Notes under the pieces: model-generated
What the model was told of the DNA's origin: nothing
Seen by the model: only the letters and a program-made list of their open reading frames with translations
Databases searched by the model: none
DNA from: Apostichopus japonicus
Lineage: Eukaryota > Echinodermata > Holothuroidea > Aspidochirotida > Stichopodidae
DNA length: 64,000 nucleotides
Direction: 5' to 3'
Assembly: GCF_037975245.1 (NCBI RefSeq)
Contig: NC_092562.1
Span: forward strand, 28,843,554-28,907,553
Part shown: piece after piece, positions 23,332-50,712 of the stretch
Layout of the letters: each line of letters starts with the position of its first letter
Position numbering within the stretch: position 1 is the first letter of the stretch
Program-made: the position numbers and the translations under genes

Positions 23332-23785
23332 CTACTTGACAGTGATACTGATAATCCTGATGTCATCATAAGGCTTCTCTGTCTTTGGACTGACCTTCAC
23401 CATACCTATCTTCTGGACGGCCTCCATGCCTTTAGTACAACGACCAAATACTGTGTGTTTGTTGTCTAGCCATGGCTAAAGATGGACGGACAAGAAAAGA
23501 GAAATTTGTTAAGCTTTATTGATGACTGGAGAGTTGTCATCTAAGTGCATTTAGTTAAAATGGTAATATGCCATAGCAAACTGATCACTAATGGGGAAAA
23601 GTTCACTGACTCCAACAAATTAAGTAGAGCAGAACTGAGCAATGAGACTAAATAGACTTAGCTTGATGAAGAAAATTATACAAGCAGTGAAGTGATGTTT
23701 GCAACTACAGCATTTAAAGCAGAAGAAAGGCTTATTGGACAAACATAAACCATAACATACATTACATATTGAATTAACGTATCTA

Positions 23786-23818
<33 letters not shown>

Positions 23819-26800: not shown

Positions 26801-29800
26801 GGCTTGGTGTAGCATGTTGCTCTGCGTTACTGGATAAAGTACTCTTCACTGTTTTATGTATTTTAATAACCTAACATAATTGTGTAATTAATGAATCATG
26901 GAAAAATGACTGAGAAATTTTAGACATGTGGAAAAGCAGCTAAGAAGTTTATGGTTATAATGGGATTCGTAACCTAAGATACTTGTGAGTAGGTATTTTA
27001 TTCCTCACCTGCGTGGCTGCCATTTGTTCTTCTTTACTCGGTTTTTCATTGAACACATCCCTGTCTGCATCAGCACTGTTCAGCAAAAACAAAGTAAAAT
27101 TGATTGATTTATTAAACATTGACAAAGGCTACATAAATGTATGTTGCAAAGGATAATAATGTAAGGGTACAGTCTATTATACAAAATATTAGCATTGTCC
27201 TAAGTTATGAATGAAACGTTTTACAGATCTAGTAAAAATAATTAAATATAAGAGCAGTGAAAAATGGGGAAACTGATGCAGATATGATGAACCAGGGAAA
27301 AGAGCGAAGACATTATGACTCGAATGGGATTCGAACCAGGAAACTCAGGGTTATAAAATCCTGTGGGATCAAATTTTTTTATTGAAAGTCATATTTTGCA
27401 CAATCTGCAACATGTTGTCTCTCATCTAAATATCCTTATAAGTATGTTAACAATATCCTATACAGTTATGGTAAAAATATTAAAATTGCCAAAAATGGTA
27501 GAAATTTAAGTTGAAGTGATCTGAACCTTCACTTTAAGCTTAAAGTCCAGACATCATTTTGTTGAGGAAATTGAAAGCTTGTGAACCCAGTACACACTAT
27601 AGAGCACAAACAGGTATGACAAGGGACAAAGAGTTAAACATCCTCTCCAATACTGGTTCCTTGAGATTCTGGATGAACATGGGCTCTATTTGCGATAACA
27701 ATGTCCCTTCAGACCGTGAATATCAAAACTGAGACAATAGGACTAATTGATGATGATGATCCATGGGTGATCATAACCATTGACATCCACATACTACAGA
27801 GCAAAAGCATATTTAACTTGCATGTTACTTTTACTGAGGCTAACTTCAAAGATAATTGTAAATTTTGGAGGATATCAAAACCAAACTTCATCAGCTTAGA
27901 AAGTGGCTTTTGGACGTGAACACCAAACAAAGAATAATGGCATGAATTCTCTAACCTCTTAACATCGTCCGGCTCCCTCCTGGTGAACATGTAGAATCTA
28001 TTCTTCTTGAACGCACTGCAAATCAACGTCGGGTCCGTGTCTATGGACTGAAGACTCGGATTATCAGAGGCGTGCATCTCCAAAGTGAGGGCAGCAGACT
28101 TCTTATTCAATTTACCTTGGAACAGGCTCAGGTTCAGGAAGCGAACATTTTCAGGCTGAATGTTAATCAAATTGGGAGAAAATATAACGGGTGCCTTTTG
28201 ATAATCGTGTACATGTCAAATTTTCTTAAAGTTTGCACTATATATTAAAAGAAAAAACTGTGATATTTCTATGATATTTGGAATAAAAGGTAAATTAAAA
28301 TGTAAATTAAATGAAAGCAGAGTGTACAATATCTTGACAGTTAAAAGTGCATAAATGTTTTACATGAATGCACAGCCAGGTGTCCTTAATGTATAAAAGA
28401 GATTTGAGTATGATTTCATTGCCCAAACCATCTTGCAGGTGACACAAGTGCAGAACGTTGCCAATTCTGCTTGACCTCACATAAAAACCTTCTCATTAAA
28501 AAAAATCAGATCTGAAGAGTAACAGTAGCCTCACCTTACCAATCAGCCGGTTACATTTGTTAGTGTGTAGATTAAGAACCTTTATACCCAACATGGTGGC
28601 ATACAGGACAAAGTGACCACTAGCATCATAGACTGGAAAATAAGACAAAACAAAGAATGTTTCTAGTCAAAATATTTCAAAATCAGATTAGTACTTGAAT
28701 GTTACATGTAGGGTCGGGAATTGCTCAATACAAGTGTTGCAGCTTGTAACAATTGTGTGGTGTAGGGGGCATAACAGTCTTTGAAAACAAGGCAAGAAAT
28801 TCTGGCTGTTTGTAAAAATTACAGTATAAAGTACAAAATGTGGTTTAAAAATCAGGTAAGTTTGCAAAAATTGTATCAAAAATCAAGATTGCAGTACTTC
28901 AAACTTCAAATGACGATAAAAAGATGCAAACAACAGGTCTGAATTTTCTACGTTTTATACGTTTTTTCATTACTTGTTTGTAGTATAGAACTATGTACAA
29001 AATTAATCAAGAACTGGCCAAAAAAAGGGGGGGGGGCGAGGAGGAATGGAGAGGGGAATAAAAATTAAAATAAGTTTCATGTGTGTTTGCTTTGTTTTAT
29101 AACTTACTGATACTTGCAGTTGAGAATAGTTCTGATTTTTGTAAGTCTCTCTCAGCGGCTAGCCGTCTTCCAAACTCCATATCTGGCAACTGCTGCCTCA
29201 TCTGTTGCAATTCCGTAAATGTCTTTAAAGACTCATCAAAGACTTTTGTCAACTTGCCCGTTAGAAACCGGAATGTCCTTATCTGGAACGGGAACATTAA
29301 ATTTATAGCAGTATGACAGATAGGTCAGGTCAACAAGCTGTATAATATATGCACAGGATATATATATCATCTTAGTCTTTACAGTGCCATAGATATAGCT
29401 CTGATTCCTAACATGCATGATCTATCCTCTTCACAGATCTCAAAAGATGTTTGTTAAGCACTGTGACATATCTCAATCTGTGTGCTTGTGGTGAAAAATA
29501 TGTTTAAGTAGACCTCTTCCTTTAGGAGAATTACCAGTAGAACAGCAGGTATAAGTCCAGAATATTTCATTTTAATAGGAGACTTGGATACAATTTACGG
29601 GTGAAAAATGCTTAATCTCAGTTAAGCGAAAGTGATTGAAAATACAGCAAAGAAGTTTTCTGATTGGATGACGACCAGACCTGTGTTAAGGTGTGTTAAG
29701 GAATCCTAAGATACCGTTCCTAATGAAGTCTGTCAGAAAAATTCAAATCGAAAAACATATGATGCTGGCACTTTGGATGGTAGAAAGAGAAGGGAGGTCA

Positions 29801-32800
29801 TTGACCTAAGGAGCCGGTCACTGAGGGTGCACAGTGTTAAAGGGTAACCAGTTCATTCTAGACACGGTAGAATGAGAGTGCTAAGGTTGTGGGGAGATAG
29901 GTAAGCGAGGAGCAAAGTAAATTCCTCAAAGGGATTCTCAGGCATTTCAGAGACTGCAGATTATCAAGTGTTGCAGAACTATGTCAACTATGTAAGGGTT
30001 GCAGACTTATAGATAGATAGATATTTATTCAGCCAATCATATAAACATACAATGGAAATTGGTTGATAACAAGAGCTCAAAACATTAAAAATTGTAAACA
30101 ACATATAAGACGTACTATACATAGATAGGAAAACATTCCTATAAAATGTAGAAAAAAAAGAAAATGTACTCACAATATAAATATGAACAAAATATAAAAT
30201 GTACCTACAAAATATTTAAGCGTACAAAAATATATAAATGCCCTCATATCCAATATAAAGTCTACAAAGTATGTAATTGTCCATAAAATATTAAAATAAT
30301 GGATTATAAAATTATTTAACGGTTTTGCAGCCCACTGAATATCTTAACAGCAGAAGGATAAAAACTGTCAGTAAATCTTAGGCAAAGTAGTGATGTTTTC
30401 TTGAATATAAAACAGAGACTTTCTCCAGTTTCAGTTGTCTTCTTGACATATACTGCATAATACTTATACTATAGCTTGAGTTCAAAGCAATTCTCAGGAG
30501 GTCAGAGGTCATGCTGGGAAGACAATCCATCCCGTTTTCAAACCAAAGATTTACTTTTAACAAGAAGAATATTAATAAGTCCAATGTATAAACAAAGTGC
30601 GATGAGCAATGATTTACATGAGCTACAGCTGAAATACTTACCTTCCTATCTTTGGAAATAGTTGAGAACTGTTTGCCGTTTGGTGACACAGCGAGGCCAG
30701 TCGGTACTGTTTTACACTGACAGAAAAGAATTGAAATAAGTTGCAATTGGGATTCAGCCATATAAACATGAAGATTGAAGTTTACCACATTTCTGCTAAA
30801 TATGGTAGCAGAGTATCATGTTGCAAATATTGCAAAACTCATCACTATTTAATTTTCTCAGGCTCCCAGGTGCAAAAAAACAAACTGAAATCCTTTGTGA
30901 AATCCTCTGAAATCCAGGTGGTAAAAGGTCACATGTAACAGTTGCAAGTGAACTGTACAAAGTCTGTATGTGCTGAGGTGAGGGGGGTGGGGGGAGGGTT
31001 GGAGCATTGATGAAGATTCTGTCCATGAACTATCATTCTAGTGCCAGTACTCTCACAAAGGATGAAGATAATTTCACGTTCAATTAGACTAATTGTGATT
31101 TGAAGGGCAAGCCTATAAAGTACAAGGCCCAAGGAGGTTACATTTAGAGTCAAGATATAATTCTCTTGAGGATGGCATTTTGTTTTGCCCTTGAATTAAA
31201 TTAATTTCAAAGAAGAAGTCAGTTGTTCTATTGTACATGCCAGTCGTTGCCCTTATGAACTTTGATAATATAAGGCTATGAGGATGTTCAACCTCCTTGT
31301 ATTGAAACTGCTAAACAAGTTTTCATGTGTCTAGAAACCTAGCCAAACATTGCGTTATATTATATATTATGTTAATACCAACGGAAGTACAGCCTGAATT
31401 TACCTTGACAAACTCATAGAGATCTGTATCTGTTTTATACTTGAAGGCTACGTTGGATGGCAGCTTGTAGTCCGTCTTAGGCCCAGTCCAATATTCCATT
31501 ATACCCTGAGCATCTACAGAGATCACAGCCTCAAATACTGGATTGTACTAAAAGCGAATAAACAAAATGAAATAATCATGAAGAAATATGAAGGATCTAC
31601 AATCTATGAGGTTGTAGAGATTGAAAAGTTACATAATGCAAAGAAGTGATAAACAAAAATCAATTAAACTATTCACAGTAATTTTATAGTGGCATATCCA
31701 GGACATATTAATATTAATAGACAAAGTTTCATGATGGAGAATCTACAATCTGAGCAAACTTGACAATAGTTAGCTATCGATCCATAAAAATTGGATGTGT
31801 CATTATGAATTCATGATTTGCGCGATAGGTATCAATTGCAATAACACGTAAAGGTAGTATGTATAGACCCCAAATTATAGCACGCCATAATTGCTACAAG
31901 TTTTCAAAAAGTACTTTACTGGGGATCTGTGTTCTCCAAATTGTTCCCAGACATTCTAAATGAACACACAAGATGACTGAATGTCTCAGTGAGGTACATT
32001 TCTGCCAAGGTGGTATTAAAGACAGTTTAAGAATTTTGACCAAATGTGACCATATTTAAATGTCTGGCATATTTTGGACCAATACAGCATAACTTTAATG
32101 GTGAGAACTAACAGCTATGATGCAATACCTATAGTAGGCTTCACACAACTGATTGCTGTAAACACCAGTGTTGAAATACTTGTACGGTAATGAGAGGTGT
32201 CATCAACAATATCACTTTGCCACTGAGACTGCTCGGGCACAAACTGTCAGGGAACATCATTACTTTTTGCTTGAAGACTGTGTTGGTTGGGTGCCAATTT
32301 TGTGTAGATGAGAAAGGTCTGTAACTGTAACTACCTGTCTCTGCACATACCATCTTTTCAAAAGAACACAATCAATGAGAGGTCCCTTCTGATTGGTTCT
32401 TCTTGCTTACCTTCATAGCAACCACAGGTGCCGAGTGTAGTTTGTCAAGACAATGAATTGCTTCATTACTTCCCTTTCCATCGTAAATATAAATCTTACC
32501 GGAGCCTTTTTCTGATCTGTAAAGCAGCAAAAAGTGAAAAATAAAAAATCTTTAAAAGGGGCATTGCAAAGACAGACAATGTGACACATGTAAGGTGATA
32601 GTAAGTTGTAGCCATGTTTGTTCCTTGCTCAAAATATCTTAACTTATGGTAGTTTACACTTGTAAGGTGATAGTAAGATAGTCCACAGTACAAGCTGTAA
32701 ACAATCGCCCCATGTTTCATTCCTTGCTCTAAATATGTTAACTTATGGTAGTTTACACTTGTAAGGTGATAATAAGATAGTACCAGTAAAAGCTGTTAAC

Positions 32801-35800
32801 CATATAGCCATGTTTCATTCCTTGCTGTACATATGTTAACTGATCGCAGTTTACACTTGTAAGGTGACAGTAAGATAGTCCTCCAGTACAAGCTGTTAAC
32901 CATATAGCCATGTTTCATTCATTGCTCTAAATATGTTAGCTTATGGTAGTTTACATTTGTAAGGTGATAGTAAGATAGTCCTCAGTACAAGCTGTTAACC
33001 ATATAGCCATGTTTCATTCATTGCTCTAAATATGTTAACTTATGGCAGTTTACACTTGTAAGGTGATAGTAAGATAGTCCTCAGTACAAGCTGTAAACCA
33101 TATAGCCATGTTTCCTTCCTAGCTATTGATATGTTCAGGCATGGTCTTTTAAGTCAGCTGAATAAATATATAAATTCTGACATAACTTCAGCACAGTGAG
33201 AACATAGTGGATGACCTGTGATATATTCCCATTCAAAGAATTTAATTTCCTCTAATGACTTTTCTAGTTTCCTTTTTCCATATTGATTGTGATATATTGA
33301 GATACCGGGTTGGCTGCCACTGTGCTCTAAATTCAATGATTCATACAGATGCATTTATTTCTAATAAAATAGTTCAGACATGGTATATTCATGAAAGCAT
33401 AAGACAAGTTTGAACCAAATTCTGTGTCTGGAATATCCTCAGACAACTTACTTCAAAAAAGATTGCTTAACAAATAAAACATACTTGCGTCTTCTAATCT
33501 TATCCTTGCTCTATCGAGCGGCATACATAACTTACAGGTTGGAATGAAATCACTCTCACACTTCCACTTGAGAGAATACTCAATAATTAAGCAGGATTTG
33601 CTTTTTGTAAAGATGGCAACTTTGCTTTCTAAGTCTGTTTCATTTTGGATGGGGGGTGGGGGGAGGAAGGGAAAGGAGGAGGGATGGTGTTGTACTCACA
33701 CAGCCATGGCGGAGACAGCATCTCCGGCTCTGTAAATCCACTCACATCTTCCTGGATGGTAACCCAACTTCATCATATTGATCATGTCTGTGCAGAAAGG
33801 TAAGATACGGTAACAAACATATCATGAGGTCGGCAGTAATGAAGTTAGTTATTTAATGTAAGTTCTATAAATTCATATTCCCCTCCAGCATAGAAAGGAG
33901 GACTGAAGGAAGAAGTCAATGACGAATGAAGAATCAAACAAGATAACATAATTTATTCAGGCATGGGTGCTTCTCTGGAAACTGCCACACACTCTTGACA
34001 TGGTACATACGAGAATGAGCGTTAACCATCCTTCCGTGAGATCCAAATTATTGAGACGGTGCTATCTCAGACAGTAAAAAACTCTTGACATTGAACGTAA
34101 GAGAATTAGCATAAACCATCCTTCCGTGAGATCCACATTATAGAGATGGCATCACTCAGACAGTCAAAAACTCTTGACATGGTACGTAAGAGAATTAGCA
34201 TAAACCATCCTTCCGTGAGATCCACATGATAGAGATGACATCACTCAGACAGTCATTAATGCAGAAACACTTCATGCTCTCTTCTGCTTAAGGATAATGA
34301 TTGATAGAAAGAAGACATGCTAAACAACCAGGTAGAATAAAATTCATGGGTCACATCAATTTCTTACCAAAGTTGACAACATCAAATATCTTGGCTGCTT
34401 TATCTTCAGCTACAGTGCACATCAGGCTTCCATCTGTACTAGTTGACATGTCCTCAATTTTACCTAGATGCACAAAAAACCCCAAAACAAAGAGTTAGAA
34501 TGGAAATATAAATAACAGAAAATCTTGTTGTGTAAAAGTAAGTTGGCCTGACCTTTCCATCCGAGCAGGATCTTCTTCAAAAGCTAATTGACAAGTAACA
34601 GTAACAGAAGGGACACAACTCGCACAGAATACAGAAAGGTTAATGAGCATGGTGAACACAAAGAGATGGATGTCAGAAAAGCTTTTTGGTAGGGATATTG
34701 GATAAATAATTCTCTAATGATTCATCCTCCTTCCACTGCTCACTCCACTACGAGAAAGGAAAAGTCATTTTGGCCTAGGGGAAGAGTCATAAGTTTAGGA
34801 TTATTTCCTACTCCTTTGTGGAGCAAAAAAACGAAAACATCCTCAGGTTATCTACATGAAACCGGTACCAAATCTGAAGTTAAATATGCTCATTCTAGCA
34901 TACATAGTAAATACAATAATTCCAACTGATGTGAGCAAATCACTGTCAACTAACACAGTTGTTTAAGGTTTGTTTAATCCGTCGAGATGCTCCCATCAGC
35001 TGGCAACAATACAGATGTAGCAGTAAATCTAGATGTATGGTGATTATAGTTTCCCCGATTCCTTCCACACCCGAGTACCAAGTGTACTCTTTGAATCCAA
35101 TTGGGATATTCAGCATTTCTGCAGAGGGAACTGTCGTATTGGTTCTAACAACGCTGTAGATACGACTCTGGGTCCCAATGCACGTTATCTATCCTGTTTA
35201 CAGATTTCTAAAGATTTTTGACAGCACTGTAATATATCTCTATCTATGGGCTAGTGGTGAAACTTTGTGGAAATTCATCTTGCCTTCAATATTTACAAGA
35301 AGAATTGCAGGTCTTAGGCGCGGATATTTTTTTTTTGCAGACTTGTGATACAATTTCGTAAACCCAGTTTAGCAGACTTGATCGAAAATCCCTCTAAGGA
35401 GCTTTCTGATTGGTTTACAACCAGATGAGTGTAAAGTTGTCAAACTATACGGTGGGCAACATTTCGTTGTTAAAATGTGCTAGTTATGAGTAGTGAAAAC
35501 TGTACAGCATGTCAATTGGAACATGCTAAACTATGTGTGATTTAGGAAATGTGCAGGTACTGTTGCCCAGAAGTGTCCTTGAGATTCCTCAAAGGAATAC
35601 CCAGTGATTTCAGAGACCGCAACTTGTCAAGATTAGTGGAACTAAAAAGGACCATTTTGACAACACCCCTCTGTTAATTTAGTGTGTGACTGGAGATCCC
35701 TATTAGTATAACAATAAATAAATAACTTGTAATTCAAGGGTACTTTCTGTTCTGCTTGCCCTTACCTAAGTGAGCTCGAAAGTGTTTCACAAATTCTATT

Positions 35801-38800
35801 CCACCCTCCTCTTTCTTCCAGAACTTGACATGTCCATCACAGCTAGCTGTCATTACAAAATCAGACCTGGTGGAACAAGAAAAAAAAGTTATTGAGCAAT
35901 TAGTTTCAAGGTTGAATTAAGTTTTCATTCTCTAGGTTCCATAGGTGGGGGCTGTATCTGGACCTGAAGGAAATTCTTCCTATCAAACTTACTGCTAACA
36001 ACCAGACCAGCAATCACTTAGAAAGTCTCAATCAACATTCAATACACAATATTAAACTTATTTGATATAAAAAATATCAAAATATTAAAATGGATAATTT
36101 TCTCATATTTTGGATCTAAATATTGATGAAAATGGGATAAAGATCTTATGAATGTTTATTGTTTGTGCGAATATGAACATGTCTGATCAGCCTCAGTTAA
36201 TCGCACGTTTCAAGGGCAAATGACTACACTTGCATCGAAGTGGCATCTTGTGTTACCCATACATGGGTTACCAGATATCCCATTTTTGCAACAAAATATT
36301 TTGTTTCTCCGGCAAACTAAATTGTCCCGATTCTTTATAAAAGCTCTTTGTGATGTTAGAAAAGTAATTTTCATTTAATGATAGGCAAACTCAAAAAAGT
36401 ATGTATGCTGTATGCATCATTATACGTGACCGTTTCGGAAGCTGTATATTTCTTTCAAATTCAAATATGATTGATGAGTCCCCTTATCAACACCACAAAC
36501 TTATGAAAAAGCTTTGTTGCCCTTTTTAAAATCATAATTTTTTTCAAACGGGACGGAGGGATGCATTGTCACACTTTTCAACAAATAAAATATGACTATA
36601 CGTCTGTATATTGATGGTTTAAAAAAGATGGTTTCTAGGATTTTTTAGATTTTATGATGTTCTGTCGTGTTGGTTTTTAGGTTCTAACTTCAATTGGAAT
36701 TTTCACTTTTTGGCATTCAAATTGTAGATTTTGTAATTAATCTGTTTTATCGCTTTACTCTTCACCAGTGCTTTTAATCGTTTTTCGATCTCATATTCCT
36801 GTATATATATGTAGATGGTATATGTATTTACTGTTTTTTGTATTTAATGTTTAATGTCATTGTATTTTCTAGATTGTTTGTAAAGCGCACAGATGCATCG
36901 TGCGTAGTGCGCTATATAAGATTTTATTTACATTACATTTACATTACATATTCTGTGTACTTACTTTGCTACAGCCACATGAGTTACAAAGTCTCTATGC
37001 ATGTAACTCTTCTCATAGCATTCAGCGGAGGGTAGATTCTCCAAGTAAACAGCTTCAAATTCTAAGACTACAGGTGAAACAGAAAATACAATGAATTAAT
37101 AAGTTATGTCTCAATAAATACTTTGTAAAGCAACATATTAACAATCAGGATTGAAGTGTTATAATGTCAAAAGCTGTTTATTCTTTGGTTAGCAGAATAT
37201 TAGCAATTTGCACAGACTTTACACAGAATGTTGCAGTTTATTCGTTGGTTTCAGAATATTGGAAAAAAACTTGATAAATAACTCTGAAGTCAGTTAACAT
37301 ACAAAATTTGAAACTTGCTCACACAGGTTTGCTGTACTCAACTGTTAAAAGTAGGCAGATGACACATGAAGGTTAGGCTAAGATAAAGTGATGTTAGGAT
37401 ACCACTCCCCTCTGTATCAGCAAGAATTACATATTAGGTTGCCTGGTTACGCTACCTTAAACAATATAGCAGCATCTGTAAATGCCATCCTACTTGGACC
37501 AATAGCTTGCATGACAAACAGGTACGGAATCTGATCAGATACGTTATAACATAATGCACCGACTGGTTATGTTACCTTAATACCCTGTCCTTTCAGGTAT
37601 GTAGCGAATGGACCGATAGCTTGCATGACAAACAGGTAGGGTAAGGCATGATGAACCATCTAATCACGGAATCTGATCAGATACGTTATAACGTAGTGCA
37701 CCGACTGGTTATGTTACCTTAACACCCTGTCCTTTCAGGTATATAGCGATTGCACCGTCTGTAGCTGCCATCCTACTTGGACCGATAGCTTGCAGGACAA
37801 ACAGGTACATTGAAGCACAGTATACTAGCTAGTTACGCCACCTGTTCTGATACTCTTTCACGACTGTTGCAACATATACCGTGATGCACCATCTGGTATC
37901 GCTACACCACTATTTCCTCTCCTGAGACAACGAAGTACATAACGAAGCACCATCTTAAATGCCACCTTCAGGATGATCACCGTAACGCACCGTAAACCAG
38001 CTAGTTCTGTAAACTGCACTGTAAACAGCTAACTGTAAACCAGAACTGTAAACCAAGATTTGCAAGATTTGGCACTCTACCACGGTGATCAGATACGGTA
38101 TAACGCAAAGCAACATGTGTTAATGCTATCTCACTTGTCTTCTTCTGGGACAACGAAGTACATAACGATGCACCATCTTAAATGCCACCTTCGGGATGAT
38201 CAGTTACCGTAACGCTTCGTAAACCAGATAGTGCTATGAACTGCACTGTAATCAGCGTTCTGTAAACCAGCTAGTTTTGCTGCAAGATGTGGGGGTCTAC
38301 CCAGCGATCAGGTACGGTATAACGTAATGTGTTTATGCTATCTCACTTTTCTCTTCTTCTGGGACAATGAAGTATATGGTCAAGCATCATCTGTAAATGC
38401 CACCTCACTTAATGCTCTACCCAGTTATCAGGTATGGTACAGTGTAATACACTACATGGAAATAAATGTCATCTCATTTATTCCTCTCCAACCATAAATC
38501 CAGCAAAACTCCTAAAAGACAATTGAAACTAAATTGTTATTTATATTTAAAAAGTTGAAGTTTTCCCATGGGGGGTGTATACCTTAGAGACAAAACATTT
38601 ACATATCCAAGAAATATGTACACACTCCAACAGAATTCAATTTTGAGATTTTTGGACCTCAGAACATTTCCTTGCCATAAACTGAATTTCATGGATGGTT
38701 TCATATTTAATGAGATAAGAAAAGGGTGAGAGGTTGGATGGATGGTACCTCATAAAGAGCGTCAATAAACCATGTTGTCTGGTGATCTATGATATTTTTC

Positions 38801-41800
38801 TTTTATCGGATTCAAATTGATGTAAGTACTACTGCATTTTTTGTTTGTTTCATTGAAAACAAACTTGATCTAACCAGTAGACAAATAAAAACACAACACA
38901 GTTGGGATAACTCCATATTTTGATGCAATATCAGATCATATATTGATTACATTTTGCTTGGTAGATATTCATTGAATTAGGCTCGCATGGCAGATGTTTA
39001 AAACTGCCTGTATAACATGCAAACTGGTATTCACCTTTCTCATTTCCTATATCGGAAGCAGGTGATACAATAACTTCTGTAATTTAAAGTTTCTTTATGT
39101 TTCGATACACAAGTTCCTTTACATCACTTAATAAAGACAAGTCATCAGTAGTATTTATCACTTATCCGTGAAGCAGTTGTTTGCACTTTGTTGTTAAAAT
39201 TCTGCAGTTTTACAGACCCTTTAACGAATCGCTCCAAATACGACTGACCGATTAAAAGTCTTCAATTGATGTAATTTAATGCAACTTGACAAGCTAGAAA
39301 TCTCCATTATTACAGAATTATAGCATTGAAATAGCATTCAAATTTACAAAGTTCTCATTCATTATAACAGGATTATAGCATTCAAATAGCATTCAAACTT
39401 TCAAAATTCAAAATCAATCAAAACAACTACAACATTCAGGTAACTACTGTAGTTCATAGTTGCATGTCACTAAAATATTTCAAGCAAGACTTTCAAATTC
39501 CAATTTGGCATTGATTACAACATCTCCCTCCAAACCACAAGGCACTCATTGTCCATTCTGCAAGACATCTAACTTTGGATATGATATATTTTGGGTGGGT
39601 GGGGTTAGTGATTTGGGGGGGGGGGAGGGAGACACTATGGTGTCTAAGTCTAGATATGACTGCAACAGTGCCACCAGATATGACATTCCTTTTTAGTTCT
39701 ATTTTCACTTAGTAGAGTCAATGACATCACCAGCATACCTCAAGAACCTTAAAATTTAAAAAAAGGCATTCATCAAGAAGTTTCCAACTTTGAACAAATA
39801 TATGCGGAAGCCTATAAAATGTTGTGTTGACGTTACAGTTCATGCTGAACTGGTAAGATAGTATGTATGTTAGGAACAACGTACTCTTCACAATACAGTT
39901 ATCGATTTTACTACAAGCGATAGTTCAGAAAATGTTGCACATACAGGGATATCCCGTCACCCTCTTCCCCGAAGAACGAACAATGTAAAGATATTGCCGA
40001 TCGTTAGGGAAACATGAATGTCCTCTCTCTTAATTGATTAACTGATCTTCTCTGGTGTTTTGTTGTAAAGTTCTGAGCAGGATTCAAGAAGCTGAAGAGC
40101 AGTCATGTCTCCTGCATCATACTGCTGCCACAATAGAAATATAGACCGTTGTGTATTTAACCCTTCACTCTGTTTCAAGTTTGATTCAGAGACCAGATGA
40201 ATCCGTGGGGTGACATGTTGACTCTTCTGGCATAAAACCTTCACAAGTTTGTAGAAAGGGTATCCCCTCTGTTTGGTGGCTTTCCGGCCCACTGGGTGCC
40301 AGGATTCCAAGTCTTTGCTACTGCAGACACTGTGCTGGTAGACGCTCCACGTCTCTGGTGGCCAGAGCTTATCACAAAGCCAGGTACTGGATACGTGATC
40401 AAATAGCTGCAAATAAATTAATATAACAAACAAGAAAACAAAATTAAAGAAACACACAGAATTAAAGTACCAATGATAATCTAAGTACAGTATAGTGTTT
40501 TTTCATTAAAATTCCATTAATCATCCAAATACCAAATTAGAAAGGTTAGTGAAATTGATTGCTGCCATCTGGAATGTCTTTCTTAAGAATGGAAACATGT
40601 CAATCAAATATTGGTGGCAGCATTCTGTTTCTTTTTCAGGTTTCTGTGAGGATTATCCTATGGCCATTACATATAGAGTTTCTTTTCTTTCTCGGTTAGT
40701 CATCTATACTCTGGCTGGTGAGTGATGGTGGTTACTGTATGAGTTTTGTTCACATCTATGATACCCTAAACAGGACTGTTATTCTCCTAATTAAGAGACA
40801 CACATGTCAATGTTGACAAGCAAGTTGTTGAAACATTGGCTCTCACAGCTACTGACTCTACATGCTGTAGTATGTACACACTACAACACATTCTCTGAAA
40901 ACTGCCAGTCCAATGATCTGTTTCAAATAATGGACGGTACTGGAAGGGTATTGAATTAAATGTACCACAACCTAACATGGTGTAACCATGGCGATTGATG
41001 ACAGCTTCTCAACTGACTGCAGACTCTGGATCAAAATATTATCACTCGCATTAACAGATTCAGCATCACAGCAAATGTTAAAGAGAGATAAAGAGAGGGA
41101 GAGAGGTAAGGAGATGGAGGGATAGAGGGAGGTAAACTGATATGATTTACTCATTGTCGACAACAAAGACATTTCCAAATAGAAAATACACATACATGTC
41201 TATACTGTGGACGATACACATACATGTATATACTGTGGACAATACACATTCATGTGTATATTGTGGACAATACACATACATATATATACTGTAGATAAAC
41301 CAGATGAAACAACAACCACAGATACGTGTTCCTACCTTGATAACCTTTCCAGAGTCTGTCAAAGCCTTTAGTTCATGGAATGTGGCAGGAATCACCTCTG
41401 CAGGCAGGTAAGCCAGAGACATTAACTTGCTGAGTATACTATGGACCTTCTCCTCTTTTAGATAAGCCCACGTCAAATCAAACTTGGCTATTTTGGCCCA
41501 GACGGAGTGTTTCCACTGGTGAACGTACCCCTTTAACAAAACACCCTGAAACACCTGGCTGACGGACTTCCACAGGGCCTTATCATAGTCCAAGGTTATC
41601 TCTGAAAGGCTGACACTGTCGCCAACTAATGACTTTATCACTCGGAGGACCTCCTTATAGTCTTTGCTCTTCTTCCCTGACATCAGCACGAAGCAAAACG
41701 GTAAGAACTTGATCACCTTTCCCTTTTTGACGTAGCAGTTGATAGATAGCAGGTGTGTGAAGGGATGCCTGACCAGTCTGCTAGTTTCATGAATATACCA

Positions 41801-44800
41801 TCTATCTGCAGATGCTAGATTTACCAATTGGGAGTTGGTTGCCATGACGATGTGTCTCCTTCCTTTCACATGGACATCACCTCTAACAAAGTCTGAATGG
41901 TAGAAGAAACAGAATTGTTTGCCATAAAAAGTATAAACTTTATAAAAAGTATAAATGCAGAGCTGCCAAATGTCAAATGACCACTATTAGCCCTAATATG
42001 TCAAAACCTCACCCCCTCCTTAAAATAAAAAGAGTAAAAAGAAATAAAGAACATTAATCCAAAAATGGGTAACATGATGGAACATTAAAAGCACAAATAG
42101 CTCAACAAATCCTCTTTGATAGTAACAAGAACATAATATGACCATTCTGCAAGATACAATGAACCAGATGTTTGAGAGACTCATATTAGAAAAGAAAAGA
42201 AAAATGCAATCGTGGACTGGCTTTGGCATAACTGTATATCCAATGCAGATAAAGATTAGTATTTTAACATTCAGAGAAAAAGTCCTCTGGTACAGTATGG
42301 TGTAAAGTGCTATGTAAAACTGGTTAAAGTTCCTACACAAGGTACAGCAATTTTTATGTATACATTGCTGGAAACACTATTACCATATTGTGATGAATAA
42401 ACAATAATTTGTGAACTTTGAATTGTCATGCAACTTCTAAACAGTGAATTATCCCATCGTAATCTGATGAAGTGAGAGATTTTCCACAGACATATTTACC
42501 AAGGGTTAACATGATTCTTCATTTCCAAGTAGATGTTAGTGAAGTGTATAATTTGTAGCATAATTCTGCAACATTAAATGGCACAGTTCGCATATCGTGA
42601 TTGATAGAAGGATGTATTCACAACACACTGAAAAAACCTCTTCCATGAAAGTGAAGTTTCAAGACAATGTTCTAATCACATATTTTGTTTTACTAAGTGT
42701 TGATGGCTTTTCAAATTCTGTCAAAAGTAGCCAGTAGTTAGCATAATCAGTATTTAAAGAGGGACAACAGACTTTTCCAAGATTGTAAAGATCTGTTGCC
42801 ACATTAATGCAGAAAATTAACGATAAAAGTTTAAATCTAGTATAAAAGGGCTAACATAATTATGCTGCAGATGTGACCGGCTGCTGTAAATGACTGTAGG
42901 CTAGATACATACTGGTACTGCTAAAAGTTAAAATCTCTCACAGGACAAACCTACAACTTGTTAAACTGAGACCACCCCCACCCTCCCAATCCCACCTCCC
43001 CATCCCCCTCTCCCTACCATTTTCAAAATCAAAGAATACATCAATGGATACAACGTACCATTTGGTATGTACTCTGAGATGAGATCAAACTTTAAATTCT
43101 TCAGCTCGGCTGGGTACATTTTTTGTCGATGTCGATTGGCTTGTCTTACGAGAGATGACTTGGTGGGCAGTCCGGGGAAAATTCCGCTAGCACCGACCTC
43201 GTTCACTATGATCTCGGTGACTATTGAGCCGGGCGATCTCAGTATTTCAGTGGCAGCTCTCTCCTTGATCCTGGCTCTGAGCTGCATTATCAGATGATCA
43301 TCTTTCTTGCCCTCGTGGATGTGCTCCTTGGCTCCGAAAGTGAATACATCTCCCGTCTGCGTGACGGTGGCATAACAACGGAGGGTGTCGTTACGTATAG
43401 AACATCTGGTGAATAAAATTAAAAGGAGGGACGTAAAATTAAGGCAAGATAGAACTACTGTAATAATTGCATGCAAGGAATTTTTAGGGTTGCAAACATA
43501 TATTGCTAGAAACGCACGACCTCACTAAGTTTCAGATTGGAATATCTTTTCCGGTTAAAGGTTTGAATGGAAACAGCCTTGAATAAACCATTAAATTATT
43601 ACTGCTTAGTTGGGTTGGTACTGACAGGCTCAGAAACATACTGTTACTTGGTAATACTATGAGTCACACCCACATTTGTTAGATTTGTGCCACAATTTTC
43701 TTGGGATAAAACAAATACAGGATATCAATAAATTATACGTCATTTTAATACCACACAGGCACTCTCAGTGCCTGCCTCATTCTATCTGCTTGCTGTGGAT
43801 TAGGTTAAAGGACTACATGTGATATTGTGGGGGTTCAGGTTAACGTACCAAACCAACAAGATTTGATCATATTTAAAGCGAAATATCGAACAGTGTTATT
43901 ATTAAGCATTGTCATTCTGCAGTGTGTATGTTGTGCTCAAGCACATCAAATCAATTGAAAAACGTCACAAACTGGGACCTTATGTCAATATGGACTGACT
44001 CATGCACCACTGTTACAAGAAATCTCAGCCATCAACTTAATGGTGTTAAACTACCCTAGATTTGTAAGAATTGCTTCTTTATCTGGTCCTGTTACAGAGA
44101 GTACTTGCATCAGTGATCTGTCCCAGTGTTCCAACATATATATGATGTGAATGTGCTGGTGAATGTGGTATTAAACTGCCACTACTAAGGTCTACTCTAT
44201 ATGCAGCTAATGTACATGTCTTTTTCAATAATGTGGTATTAAACTGCCACTGCTATGGTACTCGATATGCAGCTACTGTACATGTCTTTTTCAATAATGT
44301 GGTAAACTGCCATTACTAAGGTAGTCTATATGCAGCTACATGTCTTTACCTCCAGGAGGTTCCTGTTTCGGTCTTTCTTCTCATGGTGTAACTATATCCT
44401 CTGGTGTCAATTAACTTAGGTCTCTGGCGCTGGGAAGAACCCTCCACGATACTGTAGCTGACATCCTCCTCACCACCGACTGCAGACTTACTACAGCCGG
44501 CATCCGGTGTTTTCTCGACAGTTTGGGCTTCGAGATAACTTAAGCTAGCTTGGTTACCCTCAACAGGAACCCCAGCCTCTACAAGAACTTCTGACATCCC
44601 CTCTGTAGGTGGGTCATCGTTTGTGATATCTGCTTCAGCTGTTGACGTGGTGATGACATCTTCACTAGATATCACTACCTGAAAGTCTTGAGGCTCTGAA
44701 AGAGCTTCAGTGACCTATTGAAAAGAACAGCAATATGTACAGTAGGTAAGTGCCATATACAGTGCATGATAAAAGTATTAATGCCTACTGTAGGTGAGCA

Positions 44801-47800
44801 CTGTGTAAGTGCCACATACAGTGCATGACCAAGGTATAAATGCCTACTGTAGGTGAACTGTGAGCACTGTGTACACAGTAGGTAAGTGTCAGATACAGTG
44901 CATGATAAAAGTATTAATGCCTACTGTAGGTGAGCACTGTGTAAGTGCCACATACAGTGCATGATAAAGGTATAAATGCCTACTGTAGGTGAGCTGTCAG
45001 CACTGTGTACAGAACAGTAGGTAAGTGCCACATACAGTGCATGATAAAAGTATGAATGCCTATTGTAGATGAGCACTGTGTATGTGCCATATACAGTGCA
45101 TGATAAAGGTATGAATGCCTACTGTAGGTGAGCTTTGAGCACTGTGTACACAGTAGGTAAGTGTCACATACAGTGCACGATAAAAGTAATAAATGCCTAC
45201 TGTAGGTGAGCAATGTAGCAGCCACGGTTTCTACATCTTTGGTTTATTCAGAATTTTTTTATGTTTAAACGAGAAATCCTGTTTTTTTAAATCATTGAAT
45301 TCCAATATTTTTGCTATTAAATGAAGATATGTATGACAATAAGTTAACTAAAACCTCACACTACCCGTTTGAAATTGAGCTTACATATGAAATTTAAAAT
45401 AAAATTTACTTTCTGAAATTTACTTAAAGACTGCACAATATTTATTCAAATGACAGAATATTACTATACCCCATTATCGTTTACACACACACACAAACAC
45501 ACAGTGATACATTAATTTTAAGCATTGAAACCAATTCTGTTAGAATTGTCTACAAAGTCTTCAAAGGAAAGCTCATCAAATTAAATAAGAACCTGAAGTA
45601 ATGAATGTACTCAGTTCTTCAACATACAATAGTAAAGTCTTTTGAATACATTTGGCAAAAGTTAAAATTTCAGCCAATTACCAAAGTTTAAAAGATTCTC
45701 CTACAGTGCATGTCACCAGTGAGATGCCTACAGTACTCTTGACGTGATAGTTTCAACTAGAAAGTGTCAAGCCAGTGAAGCAACAATAGAAGATGTGGAA
45801 ACGATGTCTACAACAGAGAGCGATCTAGCCAGCACGTAGTGAGCCAGAGGACTACCTTTACTACACACTGATCAACCATCGTCCTTACCACTTGGACAAC
45901 CAATCTCTGAAAAACGAGTCTGTTCTTTCTGAAGGAATCAATCACTTCTATTCCAACAAGATGTCAGCTATTTATCACAAAGCACATGTGTGCTTCGCAA
46001 ACTTGCAAAATACGTTTTCACTGACCGATTGAATGGGGAGTATCTAGTGTGCAGTGTGATTATACTTACTGGTAATCCAATGAAAGAAAGTGCAAAAGTT
46101 GTACTTGGAGAACAATTCTTGCATTTCCAAATGATGTTACAGCAAGACTTCATTGCTTCCTTGTACAAAGTTGAACTAATGCCTAAAGGAAAGATAAAAA
46201 AGTTAGCAGTATTAAAAAATACTAGGGTTGGGCGATATTTGCTTTTTAATGTCACGATAAATAGTTCAAAAATTATCGCGATATTTCGATAATTACGATA
46301 ATTTTTTCTTGTTGTTTTTAGTGTGTTCGCGAACACACTAAAAACAATTGCCGATTTCCCACCGGTGTTTTCGCGCAGCAAACACACCGAGCATAATGGC
46401 GTGGGGTTCAGGCCCGCCTTAGAGCCCCGTTGGGGTCAAGGGGTGGAACCCCTTGTGGAGGTCCAGGGGCGAAGGCCCCCGGAAAAGTTAAGTATTTTTG
46501 CGTGTCTGGCGATAAAAAATTCGCATTTGAGGATTCCAAATACTGACTAACTTTATGAATTTAAATTGTAACGAAACTGATGAAAGTTTTAAAATGACAA
46601 GTTAGAGTAGCTATATTATGTGATAAAATGAAAAGAGAATTAATCTGTCTTACAATCTTTATAAAGTTTAACTTACAAAACTGTCGAAATTATGAAAAAA
46701 ACTACGTTCGGCAAAGCCCCGTTTCTAGACTGCCTAACAATCAGTTTACAACTGCAGTGTTTAACCGTACTTAAATATCACGGTAGGCTACAATGTGCTT
46801 CAAATTTTCTCAGGTACCTCGCAAAACAACCCCCCTGTCTAACACCTGTTTGTTAACATTTTTGGCACGGTTCCAAAAAACTTTTCATGGAGTAAACTTT
46901 TTTGGCTCCACTGTAGAATTAATTAGGTAAGTCAGTAAAGGATCCGTAAAGTTATGCGAAATATTATCTTAGACGTTCAAGGAAAGTAGGTAAATATCCC
47001 CGTAACATTAAGGTAAGTAAAACACACCTCAAGCCAACCGACTCCTCCGCATGAACAAAACAATATTTTCCCAATGATACACGAGGCACAGTCTATACCA
47101 TACAGACATAGCACGATATCAAGGCCCCAATAGCTACAGTATGGCCATCTTTATGAAAGTAAACCTTGTAATTCCATGTTTTAGGCCACCAGGCGTGATT
47201 AATTATTGCTAAATATTGTTTCCATGTCCTTGTAGAAATCGTCAACTTCGAAAAATACAATTAGTTGTGTTTTTGTTGTTACGTGAGATCCGTAACCGAC
47301 GAAGTGGTTAGGCTATTTACTATACACTTAACTATGGTAGGATATTATTATTATTATTTTTTTTGGAAATTCTATAAAATACTTTCTTTCCCCCGCTTTA
47401 CACCAGATGTGGTCTTCTGGTTTATTCATAAATGGGTGTACTAGAGCCTTGTTTACATGACACTTGTTGCATTTAGCACGATATGCCAGTTTTGCGTGAA
47501 TTTTTCGAAAGTATTTTGCTCGATCTATCGTAAAATTAGAAAGGTGTACCAACTTACTTTTCGTACACAATTGGTAATTTCTCTACTGATTTTCAGAGTT
47601 TTGTTCTCTATACAGTCAATGTTGTAAAGAACGGGTTTTTACGAAGTTCAAAAGTCAGTAAATGAAGTTGATAAAATATTTCTTTTCAACTTTCTTAACC
47701 ATGGAATGCTAGAATAACATTTACACATAAAACGGAAATTTTTTTTCCTACATCTATTTCAAATTTCTTTCACAAGAAATTATCGTCATTTGTTCAATCC

Positions 47801-50712
47801 TCAAAAAATATCGTCTTGAAAAAAAATTATCGCGATAATAATAATTTTCGATATATCGCCCAACCCTAAAAAATACCCCCAAAAAATTAATAGTTAAACA
47901 GCTGTTATCACTTATTACTGAACATGAATATTGCATAGTTTATAATTGACGCAGAAACCCCTTGCACGAGATGGCTAAAGAATGTATAAGCCAAAAAGGG
48001 TTATGCACTACTTGCAAGCAACAATCTTTATGAATGAGACAAAAATGACACATCATTCTGAACTGGAGAGACCTGTTAGCTCAGACAATATATCAATTTG
48101 ATAACGTATACCAATTCTGTACACATGATAATACACAAGTCACTAAGTAGGTTAGTTTATAACTTTGTTTATGGTTCTTATTCTACAGTAATATTCACAT
48201 GAATCACATTGTTGAACTGGTACACTTTCATTGGAAATTTTGGGAAAAATTCAGCGTTCAAATTTGGTGTAGCAGTTTCGAACGCTCAGAAATTTATCAC
48301 TTATAAAATACTATGGATCCTGTATAAAATACTGCTATACATCTACAGTACAAGAGTAATGTGCATATAGCATTTGGGATGGGATACCAGATATATATGC
48401 AAATTATTCCCTAGAATTGTTATAAAGTAAGATGTTTTCACTTTTCTACTCGGTAGTGACTAGTTCTGTAGGAGACATGGTTTCAGTAAGTCACAAAAAC
48501 AGTCCAAAATCAACATTATTTGAAAAATAGTGTGATATATTTAATTTGCAATATAGTCAAGATATATATATTTATATAAATATTTTCAGTGTGACCTACA
48601 AACTGTAATTAAAAGTTCATAGTAAAAGTACAATATCCATAATTTTCTCAAAATGGAAAATCATGTTACTTTACCCGACATATATTTATGTTGTATATAT
48701 ACTTCAATATAAAGTGTTATGAATTTGTGTCATGAAAAGAAAGCTCACAGAAGAAAACTAGGAACAAAATTTATATATAAAAGAGTAAAAAAAAAAGAAA
48801 AAAAAGAGCGAGGCAATAATTGGAACTAACAGGATTCCAGTAAGTGCGAGTTGTTAAAGAATTGGGCAATAATGACATTCAAGGCCTCTGTACTGTACAT
48901 GGTACTTACCAGTCTCACATGCTATGTGCTGTCCATTCGAGCAAGATGCACAGTCCACCCACTCCTCGCTGCTTGTATCTATGTTCCTTCCACACGCAAT
49001 GCATGGAATGTCACCTGTGGAAGTAGATGCTGCCTGATTGGGACCTGGTTACATTTTTATGCAAACATAGGGACTGCACAATATGTACAGTATATATATA
49101 CAGTAAATCTTCCATCTAAGGAATTACCTTCAAGTTGGGTTGGCGCGAGCTCAGGTAAATGTGAATAAAACGCAACACAGCTTAGTATAGAAGAATGGCT
49201 CTGCACTGTACACTAAACCTATATCAATAAAAATTTATTTCATATTGAATAATTTAGCATCATGAAGAAAGCAGGATACTTTCCGACCATTGCCTAAGGT
49301 TAACACCATAAGTGCTCCCAACACTTACTTAAATTGTGGGTGACATGCACAACACTTTATGAGCCAAAGTAGTTACAGCTAAATCAGCCTACAAAATCAA
49401 TCTTACTTGCTGACATCAAATCAAGCTTTCTGTATGCAACGAGATTATCCTGTATTCTTGTTCAATTTTCCATATAAGCCAGGCAGACTTGGCAGGCACT
49501 TTTCTTTTTAAATGACAAAACACAGATAAAAGTACTGTAGCCTTAGTCAGGCCTAATTGTGGGGCCTAGCAATTAGACTTAGGCCTAACATTCAGCTTAC
49601 TGAGGCTAGACTTGGACCTAAGTTAGGCATAATCTTGGTTGTTTGCATTAACTGTGAGCTTTTGTAATAAAAACCTGTATTTATGGGGGAAAGAAATGGT
49701 GGCAGCTGTGTTGGAATGTACTGTTTCCCTACTACCTACACGACCTACTTTAGGGCACGTAAGGGGCCTAGGCTTAGTGGCTTGATCGTGCATAGTAATT
49801 TTACACTTCTAACTTCCAAGAGCTTCTAAGATCTTATAAGTTCACCACCAATTTTATTTTGCTTTGCTTTATCCTGTTACCATGTGATTCAATTGAAATT
49901 GATCAGAATTAGGCTATGCCAGAATGAAATTAATTTGCATTTGTACAGGTCCCATGTAAGAGCAATTACAAGAAACTGCTGGCAAATACAAAATTAATGT
50001 GTTCTCTTTGAATTCTAGCCTAGGCCTATTTGATTTCATGAAGGCTATATGCTAGAGATTAAAACTTGCATTAAGCAGTTGCTTCAATTTGATAATTAAT
50101 CATGGTAACTATAGTGTGCAAAGACGTATGAAGTATTAGCCTATGCAGTAGGCAAAGTTACGGAATTTTTATTTACTAAAATACTACTTCTAGTTCTAAC
50201 TGACGTTCTAGGTTGGTAATTAGTACCACGTTTGGACTTGTACTACAACAAGCTTCAACTATAACCTAGTACTACTGGGCTAACCTTACTGATTGTCTTT
50301 CAATCAAGTTCATATGTCGTACCTAGTACGGGTATGTCGGGACAGCCTACCCTAGACTTAATAACAAATAGTCTATAACTTACAACAAGTGCTACACCTA
50401 ACACTACAGTAGGCATATGTACCATAGCGCACATACTATACTGTAGGGCTTAGCAATAAAATAAGCAAAATATGCCTAGGCCCTAGCCTAATGTTAGGCC
50501 TAACCGTTACTTGTCACAGTACGAACGACTAGGTCCTAACTTTTTAAGACTCAAATGAGCCTGAACGGCGAACCTTTTCGCTTCTTTTCTTTCACAGCTT
50601 CTGTTGGCATTGGTCCTATCCATTCATCTTCTTCTTGGTTTGTTTCATCACCGGTAGGTTCACTATGTTGTCTTTTCCTATCACTGCTTTCGCTAGCCAT
50701 GGTAGCCGCCAT
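23332..50712 (-). CDS. PPWD1: PPWD1, WD40-repeat cyclophilin peptidyl-prolyl isomerase (16 exons, complete)
   Basis: PPWD1 is a nuclear, spliceosome-associated cyclophilin. Exons in transcript order: 50574-50712, 36965-37067, 35766-35866, 34368-34463, 33700-33787, 32411-32516, 31404-31547, 30642-30716, 29108-29282, 28535-28632, 27956-28155, 27009-27075, 26515-26594, 25087-25199, 24141-24292, 23332-23475. Phases agree throughout, giving 626 aa (human 646). The ATG at 50712 has A at -3 and G at +4. Residues 1-46 are acidic then basic (WIGPMP, KEKKRK). Exons 2-11 form the WD40 propeller, with [28 protein letters not shown] and [15 protein letters not shown]. Exons 13-16 form the cyclophilin domain. 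Arg515, Phe520 and Gln523 ([11 protein letters not shown]), NGSQFFIT, Trp581 and His586 match the cyclophilin A active site, so it should be active. Intron 1 is 13.5 kb and contains another gene. Exon 1 uses an unusual GTTCGC donor, but the split Val codon it makes with exon 2 (KRK-V-LEFE) matches the human order. Confidence 0.96.
23782..23818. repeat. TCTG/TCTA microsatellite in PPWD1 intron 15
   Basis: A run of TCTG tetranucleotides passing into TCTA, in the intron between exons 15 and 16. Confidence 0.8.
24335..24650. repeat. GGTATAGGTCTAT minisatellite in PPWD1 intron 14
   Basis: About 20 short units of GGTATAGGTCTATG, mixed with GGTATGGTATAGG variants. The array lies 40 bp upstream (transcript sense) of exon 15's acceptor at 24293-24294. 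It has irregular unit lengths, as expected of slippage. Confidence 0.9.
25388..26468. repeat. 48-bp minisatellite, about 22.5 units, in PPWD1 intron 13
   Basis: Unit: ACTATGAACTGCTTGTGTGG then TCATTAGCACTATCAGCAAT then AAGTCAAC. Units are nearly identical, with sparse variants (TCAACAAAAAG near 26053 and again near 26341, GAACAG near 25786). Because 48 is a multiple of three and the unit has no stop in one frame on each strand, the array produces open frames of over 350 codons both ways. These are not genes: the array lies wholly between PPWD1 exons 13 and 14. Confidence 0.97.
29380..29970 (+). repeat. Diverged dispersed repeat, copy A (PPWD1 intron 8)
   Basis: Shares order and wording with 35140-35640: ATCTATCCT...TTACAGAT, AAAGAT.TTTG, a CACTGT.A.ATATCTC block, GTGGTGAAA, GATACAATTT, TTTCTGATTGG, then ATTCCTCAAAGG and TTTCAGAGAC. 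There is no long ORF. The family is unknown to me. Confidence 0.6.
30003..30445 (-). mobile_element. LINE 3' fragment in PPWD1 intron 8
   Basis: On the minus strand, about 30395-30330 encodes a typical LINE reverse-transcriptase C-terminus ([17 protein letters not shown], then a stop). An AT-rich 3' UTR follows, and a terminal (ATCT)n tail lies at 30003-30020. The upstream ORF is frameshifted. It is a 5'-truncated dead copy. Confidence 0.65.
32570..33120. repeat. 99-bp tandem repeat, about 5.5 units, in PPWD1 intron 5
   Basis: The anchor GTTTACA.TTGTAAGGTGA starts at 32652, 32751, 32849, 32949 and 33048, so the period is 98-100 bp. Units share CAGTACAAGCTGT and ATAGCCATGTTTCATTC. The array lies just upstream of exon 6's acceptor at 32517-32518. 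Confidence 0.9.
33991..34258. repeat. 89-bp tandem repeat, three units, in PPWD1 intron 4
   Basis: Units begin ACTCTTGACAT at 33991, 34081 and 34170 and share ACCATCCTTCCGTGAGATCC and CTCAGACAGT. Units 2 and 3 are the most alike. Confidence 0.9.
34530..34590. repeat. Fragment sharing the GTAAGTTGGCCTGAC core of the 13.7 kb hairpin
   Basis: GTGTAAAAGTAAGTTGGCCT then GACC at about 34533-34556 equals the arm of the hairpin at 13682-13743. It is followed by CCGAGCAGGATCTTCTTCAA, a sequence context common in repeats of marine invertebrates. It is a remnant without coding capacity. Confidence 0.6.
35140..35640 (+). repeat. Diverged dispersed repeat, copy B (PPWD1 intron 3)
   Basis: Partner of 29380-29970 in the same orientation. 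It shares blocks TATCTATCCT, CACTGTAATATATCTC, GTGGTGAAA, TTTCTGATTGG and ATTCCTCAAAGGAAT. Divergence is high. Confidence 0.6.
36700..36958 (+). mobile_element. L2-like LINE 3' tail beside PPWD1 exon 2 donor
   Basis: The segment ends TTTGTAAAGCGCACAG...GTGCGCTATATAAG, then ATTTACATTACATTTACATT. A TGTAAAGCGC...GCGCTATATAA stem followed by a short repeated tail is characteristic of L2/CR1-type LINE 3' ends in animals. It stops about five bases from the exon 2 donor (GT at 36963-36964, minus strand). Confidence 0.65.
37440..38480. repeat. Degenerate tandem repeat region in PPWD1 intron 1
   Basis: Blocks recur at irregular spacing: GATCAG(A/G)TACG(T/G)TATAAC, GCACCGACTGGTTATG, CCCTGTCCTTTCAGGTAT, TTGGACCGATAGCTTGCA and TCTTCTGGGACAA(C/T)GAAGTA. 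Units are roughly 130-250 bp and much decayed. No coding frame. Confidence 0.7.
40038..49014 (-). CDS. PHD-like/FLYWCH/MULE-transposase-derived protein, nested in PPWD1 intron 1
   Basis: Six phase-compatible exons in transcript order: 48910-49014, 46070-46182, 44350-44714, 43059-43405, 41336-41880, 40038-40406 (TAA at 40038-40040). Exons 1-2 encode a C4HC3 PHD-like finger ([23 protein letters not shown]). Exon 3 is acidic linker, then, split with exon 4, a FLYWCH-type finger (SWRC, RCYA, KEHIH). Exon 4 continues with [10 protein letters not shown], typical of animal FLYWCH-MULE proteins. Exons 5-6 are a MULE transposase domain: [43 protein letters not shown]. The expected first catalytic Asp (family motif DGT) reads HET and the GC..H motif reads GYVH, while the second Asp and the Glu remain. 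The ORF is intact over six exons, which suggests a domesticated, non-transposing DNA- or chromatin-binding protein. No SWIM finger or terminal inverted repeats were seen. The 5' end is uncertain: exon 1 needs one preceding base, supplied either by a 10-nt exon at 49407-49416 or by PPWD1 exon 1. Confidence 0.82.
41150..41300. repeat. Short tandem repeat in last intron of the FLYWCH-MULE gene
   Basis: Four units of about 33 bp read TACACATACATGTATATACT followed by GTGGACAA. The array lies about 35 bp past (transcript sense) the exon 5 donor at 41334-41335. Confidence 0.85.
44163..44349. repeat. 66-68 bp tandem repeat abutting the FLYWCH exon 3 donor
   Basis: The anchor AATGTGGTA starts at 44162, 44230 and 44296. 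Units share TTAAACTGCCA, ATGCAGCTAC and CATGTCTTT. The last unit runs directly into the exon 3 splice donor (GTAAAGACATG on the minus strand, G at 44349), so the intron's first bases are part of the repeat. Confidence 0.85.
44737..45222. repeat. Higher-order tandem repeat (~137 bp, two subunits) in the FLYWCH gene intron
   Basis: The anchor GTAGGTAAGTG starts near 44741, 44877, 45019 and 45153. Each ~137 bp unit contains two related half-units with CATACAGTGCATGATAAA, then ATGCCTACTGTAGGTGAGC. It begins about 20 bp upstream (transcript sense) of exon 3's acceptor. Confidence 0.9.
45483..45503. repeat. CA microsatellite
   Basis: An interrupted (CA)n run in the intron between FLYWCH-gene exons 2 and 3. 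Confidence 0.8.
46312..46347. repeat. Perfect 36-bp palindrome inside the hAT element
   Basis: TTGTTTTTAGTGTGTTCG (46312-46329) is followed immediately by its exact reverse complement (46330-46347), with no loop. Confidence 0.95.
46421..46492. repeat. GC-rich cluster of three short stem-loops inside the hAT element
   Basis: Consecutive inverted pairs CCCCgttGGGG, AAGGGGtggaaCCCCTT and GGGGCgaaGGCCCC lie in about 70 bases, within otherwise AT-rich element DNA. Confidence 0.75.
49015..50573. other. 5' part of PPWD1 intron 1, TAGGCCT-rich
   Basis: Apart from the candidate exon at 49407-49416, no coding frame is seen. Positions 49540-50520 are dense in AGGCCTA/CCTAGG words, a pattern frequent in echinoderm DNA. 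If the nested gene has its own promoter it should lie here. Confidence 0.45.
49407..49416 (-). CDS. Candidate 10-nt first coding exon of the FLYWCH-MULE gene
   Basis: ATG at 49416, then two codons and one base before a good GTAAGA donor. It ends in phase 1 as the 48910-49014 exon requires, and would start the protein MSAS before the PHD-like finger at DIPCIACG. Such a short match can arise by chance and the Kozak context is weak, so this is only a candidate. Confidence 0.25.

Follow-up and report, generated by a model that had tools for sequence, protein, structure and literature searches.

The first intron of PPWD1 holds six exons of a second gene, read on the host strand, whose coding start is absent from all six and may be the first exon of PPWD1 itself. 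A layout of this kind, either a nested gene or a fusion between a host protein and a transposase, is known; the interest lies in the missing start codon. Since the start is missing, PPWD1 exon 1 joins the first of the six exons in frame and the candidates for a private first exon occur at chance level, what looks like a nested gene may be an alternative ending of PPWD1. The window is the whole stretch of 64 kb that was analysed (C2:28843554-28907553), and the genome searched comprised 671.6 Mb in 35 contigs. The features are collected in Table 1, where the intronic gene is called the guest.

Table 1. Features of the PPWD1 locus, in positions of the window
Feature	Position	Strand	Details
PPWD1 exon 1	50574..50712	-	139 nt, ATG to AAAAG|gttcgc donor; human PPWD1 alignment
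PPWD1 intron 1, contains the guest	37068..50573	-	13,506 bases
PPWD1 exon 2	36965..37067	-	human PPWD1 alignment
PPWD1 remainder, WD40 and cyclophilin exons	23335..36964	-	13 more ordered matches; last pre-stop codon at 23335
Best private first-exon candidate	49407..49416	-	ATGTCAGCAA|gtaaga, M-S-A, donor 7.4
Guest PHD exon	48910..49044 (or 49014)	-	acceptors 49044 (pyrimidine share 0.39) / 49014 (0.61)
Non-autonomous DNA transposon, 1646 b	46223..47868		guest intron after PHD exon; 8-b flanking duplication GTATTTTT
Guest exon, last two PHD ligands (W-K-C-x2-C)	46070..46182	-	AG...GT borders, phase match
Guest exon, acidic linker and FLYWCH first half	44350..44714	-	AG...GT borders, phase match
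Guest exon, FLYWCH second half	43059..43405	-	AG...GT borders, phase match
Guest exon, MULE (RNase H-like) core	41336..41892	-	first Asp -> His, C-x2-H -> Y-x2-Q
Guest last exon	40038..40406	-	D-L-E-S-W-H (Glu retained) through stop at 40038

The host gene and its first intron

PPWD1 exon 1 consists of 46 codons and one further base, closes in phase 1 and ends on the basic stretch KEKKRK. A split Val codon joins it to exon 2 in register with human PPWD1, and exons 1-4 gave an unbroken alignment with the human protein (PDB 5yzg chain 2, E 1.4e-54), which confirms the junction and the human order proposed by the first-pass annotation. The assembled protein, obtained by joining open frames by eye and minus two short stretches, matched the same chain from end to end through the WD40 and cyclophilin parts with 911.9 bits (E 1.2e-273). 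The N-terminal stretch of human PPWD1 matched at exon 1 (50649-50554, E 5.7e-6) and at exon 2 (37068-37024, E 7.1e-5), and beyond these the window gave nothing better than E 1.1. In the whole genome, 15 of the 29 PPWD1 matches were located on the minus strand of C2 between 28894265 and 28866888, every one of them arranged as in the protein, while the other 14 (40-63% identity) covered the cyclophilin part only (query 452-586). The ordered matches and the alignments of exons 1 and 2 thus identify the bases between these exons as PPWD1 intron 1, as had been claimed for this 13.5 kb interval.

Several observations were made in and around the host gene. PPWD1 contains a 48-b tandem array at 25347-26468 (23.4 copies, 97% alike), which can be read on the minus strand as one long open repeat. 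Zinc-finger frames, which we take to resemble RNF220, lie on the plus strand at 54183-56885, head to head with PPWD1, and the CpG-rich segment at 50.4-51.6 kb may be a promoter common to the two genes. A 459-aa open frame at 1172-2551 on the minus strand presumably carries a PDZ-like stretch. Elsewhere in the genome, COX1 on contig C35 is free of internal stops when translated with the echinoderm mitochondrial code, in which AAA is read as Asn (STNHKDIG). The animal is thus most likely an echinoderm, although flatworms and hemichordates also use codes with AAA as Asn. Broken pieces of COX1 were found on another, small contig (C29:14745-31219), and represent nuclear or misassembled mitochondrial DNA.

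The guest gene and its relatives

The first-pass annotation had placed at least six PHD-FLYWCH-MULE exons in this intron in the direction of the host, and both its coordinates and its domain names were right. The six exons, all on the minus strand, splice with matching phases into a single frame of 627 aa. The FLYWCH domain, whose C-C-H-H residues are present, scored 24.4 bits, above the Pfam cut-off of 23.6. The PHD (17.5-18.8 bits for a cut-off of 24) and the MULE core (14.6-16.5 bits for a cut-off of 27.6) stayed below theirs; all eight C4-H-C3 ligands of the PHD are retained, which makes it a PHD by its sequence, though a divergent one. A profile search of the genome returned 38 MULE-family matches, and the guest was absent among them. 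Searching with the guest protein gave 37 matches, of which six were the guest itself (79-99%) and 31 were relatives with 20-41% identity. Relatives aligned to the guest show clearer PHD and MULE domains than the guest does, and the search together with an alignment of the cores established homology to clear MULE proteins across the core.

The closest relative, L005, lacks introns and has PHD, FLYWCH and MULE in a frame that is broken once. L006, which is 86% identical to L005, carries many stops, as does a further relative, L018. L007 (C15:1752500-1761500) is a multi-exon PHD-FLYWCH-MULE gene that starts on its own Met within its PHD exon; this start is CpG-rich, and in the core both catalytic Asp are kept, as is the C-x2-H. 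Its PHD exon ends on a donor at the codon equivalent to that of the guest and in equal phase, the sole coincidence between the intron positions of the two genes. The single copy, the low identity of the relatives and the donor shared with L007 indicate that the guest did not insert recently but is an old derivative with several exons.

The catalytic positions of the MULE core, which we take to be Asp, Asp, Glu and C-x2-H, were compared by aligning the core of the guest with those of four relatives. All four relatives possess the first catalytic Asp and the C-x2-H, which are replaced in the guest by His and Y-x2-Q. All five share the second Asp, and the Glu is found in the guest and in both of the relatives whose sequence extends to this position. 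The guest thus combines the marks of a domesticated transposase: a single copy, an intact frame and the loss of catalytic residues. We consider it very probable from these features that the guest is a domesticated, nested MULE transposase gene and not a mobile element. Retained PHD and FLYWCH ligands next to lost catalytic residues would be the look expected of a tamed transposase that is kept for binding, and since the zinc modules are preserved and the catalytic core is partly lost, the product is most likely a nuclear protein that binds DNA or chromatin. Two adjoining multi-exon MULE relatives with FLYWCH were also observed at L010 (C20:7573500-7581500) and are possibly further domesticated copies; in one of them the first Asp is replaced by Lys and the second by Glu.

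The introns of the guest contain repeats of their own. The intron that follows the PHD exon carries a 1,646-b element with ends reading TAGGGTTGGGCG, a young non-autonomous transposon of which 39 other near-full-length copies, at 94-98% identity, were scored among 1,268 candidates; we assume from the 8-b duplication rule that it is hAT-like. It accounts for a CpG-rich patch in this intron. The result is a nest of three levels, a transposon lying in an intron of the guest, which is itself within an intron of PPWD1. Another guest intron holds a tandem array with a period of 136 (44739-45216), and a similar CTACAGTAGGCAT word occurs again at 50404-50423.

The missing start codon

In L005, L006 and L007 a Met stands 4-6 codons ahead of the first PHD cysteine. 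L005 and L006 open with MTEQ.IC and L007 with MADFC, in each case from the first Met of the displayed frame. In the guest, the twelve codons from the in-frame stop at 49051 to the PHD include neither an ATG nor a near-cognate codon, and an upstream exon ending in phase 1 must therefore supply the start; the exon list drawn up earlier does not contain it in any of its exons. PPWD1 exon 1, which ends in this phase, joins the PHD exon in frame through either acceptor. The fused frame has 664 aa and one terminal stop when acceptor 49014 is used and is longer through 49044, and it remains open across host and transposase exons as in a host-transposase fusion. The better acceptor, 49014, sits where the relatives have their Met. 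Of the proposal that the gene is unrelated to PPWD1, the exons, direction and domains stand; its independence is not established, given that it has no start codon and that its phase equals that of the end of PPWD1 exon 1.

On the preferred reading, a single pre-mRNA from the PPWD1 promoter would be processed in two ways. Splicing of exon 1 to exon 2 (at 37067) would give PPWD1, whereas splicing of exon 1 to the PHD exon (at 49014 or 49044), followed by the use of an intronic poly(A) site, would give a predicted fusion of 664-674 residues in which the PPWD1 N-terminus, including the basic KEKKRK, precedes PHD, FLYWCH and MULE. Ancestral copies had their own Met just ahead of the PHD; the guest has lost it, and a splice acceptor now lies roughly in its place. 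Given the lack of a guest start codon and the phase match of exon 1, a shared and a private first exon are roughly equally likely. Of 53 human same-strand protein-coding "nested genes", 22 were considered on re-examination to be probable alternative splice forms of their hosts (PMC3192792), and from this base rate and the start-codon result we put the chances that the guest uses PPWD1 exon 1 as its first exon, a junction whose frame is computed and whose transcript is inferred, at about even. Slightly more tentatively, PPWD1 may have a second product made of exon 1 and the intronic MULE, in which a 3' splice site has replaced the start of the transposase.

Several points count against sharing. 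Phases agree by chance in 1 of 3 cases, the donor of PPWD1 exon 1 (4.5) is the weakest of the seven scored (7.1-10.8 for the others), and both PHD acceptors are poorer in pyrimidine than the remaining five acceptors of the guest (0.67-0.83). The private candidate at 49416-49407, moreover, has a good donor (7.4). The base composition ahead of the PHD exon was also considered. The CpG observed/expected ratio does not exceed 0.45 within 1.1 kb upstream of the PHD acceptor, compared with 1.22 at the ATG of PPWD1 and 1.40 at that of L007. As a control we examined 28 domain-start loci of the Ras family, of which the 25 with an in-frame ATG were counted as starts; of those without one, L027 and L030 were moved to the internal set (n = 18) and L058 was dropped. 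Maxima of 0.52 or less were seen for one of 25 start exons and two of 18 internal exons, and the Mann-Whitney test hardly told starts from internal exons, with p = 0.17 when maxima were compared and p = 0.04 when the 500 b upstream were compared. The low CpG before the PHD exon is thus a weak argument for a shared exon 1, and a weak one against a private promoter. Between the guest stop and PPWD1 exon 2 we found AATAAA at 38482, 37242 and 37182 and ATTAAA at 39280 and 38711; these signals are uninformative because AATAAA occurs 60 times on that strand of the 64 kb.

Alternatively, as the first-pass annotation supposed, the guest could stand alone as a nested gene, driven by a promoter of its own and opening with a first exon, short or non-coding, within 49045-50573; we regard this reading as possible but somewhat doubtful. 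Human precedent allows it, as the other 31 of those 53 human cases were accepted as real genes (PMC3192792), and the multi-exon relative L007 begins within its own PHD exon. A scan of these 1,529 bases gave 25 combinations of ATG and donor, four of them scoring at least 6 and placed on two donors, and the best fits the phase of the PHD exon (Table 1). Candidates at least as good were present, however, in 36.75% of 400 random windows of 1,529 b.

It is improbable that the guest is a decaying transposon copy that was inserted in the intron and left an unexpressed open frame behind. Its MULE ancestry and the loss of the start codon and of catalytic residues would fit such a history, but six exons in phase that stay open over 627 codons and keep every PHD ligand contrast with the many stops of L006 and L018. 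The single copy and the intron donor of L007 at the homologous PHD codon argue in the same direction, and when the 25 longest inverted pairs, out of 64, were inspected for terminal inverted repeats, none flanked the guest. Finally, an assembly join error that brought 13.5 kb of foreign sequence between PPWD1 exons 1 and 2 is very unlikely, as the interval is contiguous in a 32.6-Mb contig, with no N within 36900-50800, and the sole copies of PPWD1 and of the guest are at this locus.

Comparison with known nested and fused genes

PPWD1 is a spliceosome-associated protein encoded by a broadly needed gene, and the locus illustrates how a transposase that lodges in an intron of such a gene can be retained as a gene of the host. 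If the shared exon is real, the guest borrows the promoter and start codon of PPWD1, and the choice of terminal exon would trade off a fusion built on a PHD and FLYWCH MULE against the making of a spliceosome component. An arrangement of this kind need not be an independent nested gene. We found no report of the locus in the literature on FLYWCH, MULE and PHD proteins, nested PPWD1 and echinoderm FLYWCH or in part of that on domesticated MULEs. Same-strand nesting had been described by the first-pass annotation as rarer than antisense nesting. This agrees with human nested pairs, for which Table 2 of PMC2330155 gives 75 parallel and 152 antiparallel arrangements out of 227, and with the under-representation of same-strand overlaps stated there, but the degree of rarity had been overstated.

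PGBD3 is located in an intron of CSB. CSB-PGBD3, SETMAR and KRABINER resemble the proposed guest in that a transposase lies within or beside a host gene, is read from the same strand and is spliced to 5' exons of the host. A published model derives host-transposase fusions from the insertion of a transposable element followed by its exonization through alternative splicing (PMC12062965). The guest differs from the CSB-PGBD3 type in being a multi-exon MULE with PHD and FLYWCH domains, and its fusion to PPWD1 is a predicted one. VAChT and ChAT are read in the same direction and have a common 5' exon. Their cholinergic locus is similar to that of the guest and PPWD1 in that an entire coding gene lies within the first intron of another (PMC3053374). 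VAChT, however, consists of one coding exon and is functionally tied to ChAT, whereas the guest is split into six exons and is not known to be linked to PPWD1 in function. In CPNE1 and RBM12, as in our proposal, two unrelated proteins are produced from one promoter with 5' exons in common (PMC2568002); these exons are 5' UTR, whereas PPWD1 and the guest would share the coding sequence of exon 1. As to its domains, the guest resembles Rehavkus (PHD) and Phantom and others (FLYWCH), which associate a MULE core with zinc fingers (PMC6446971, Table 1). None of the MULE groups described there has both PHD and FLYWCH, and the guest, which has both, further differs from the Rehavkus and Phantom MULEs by its single copy and its broken catalytic core.
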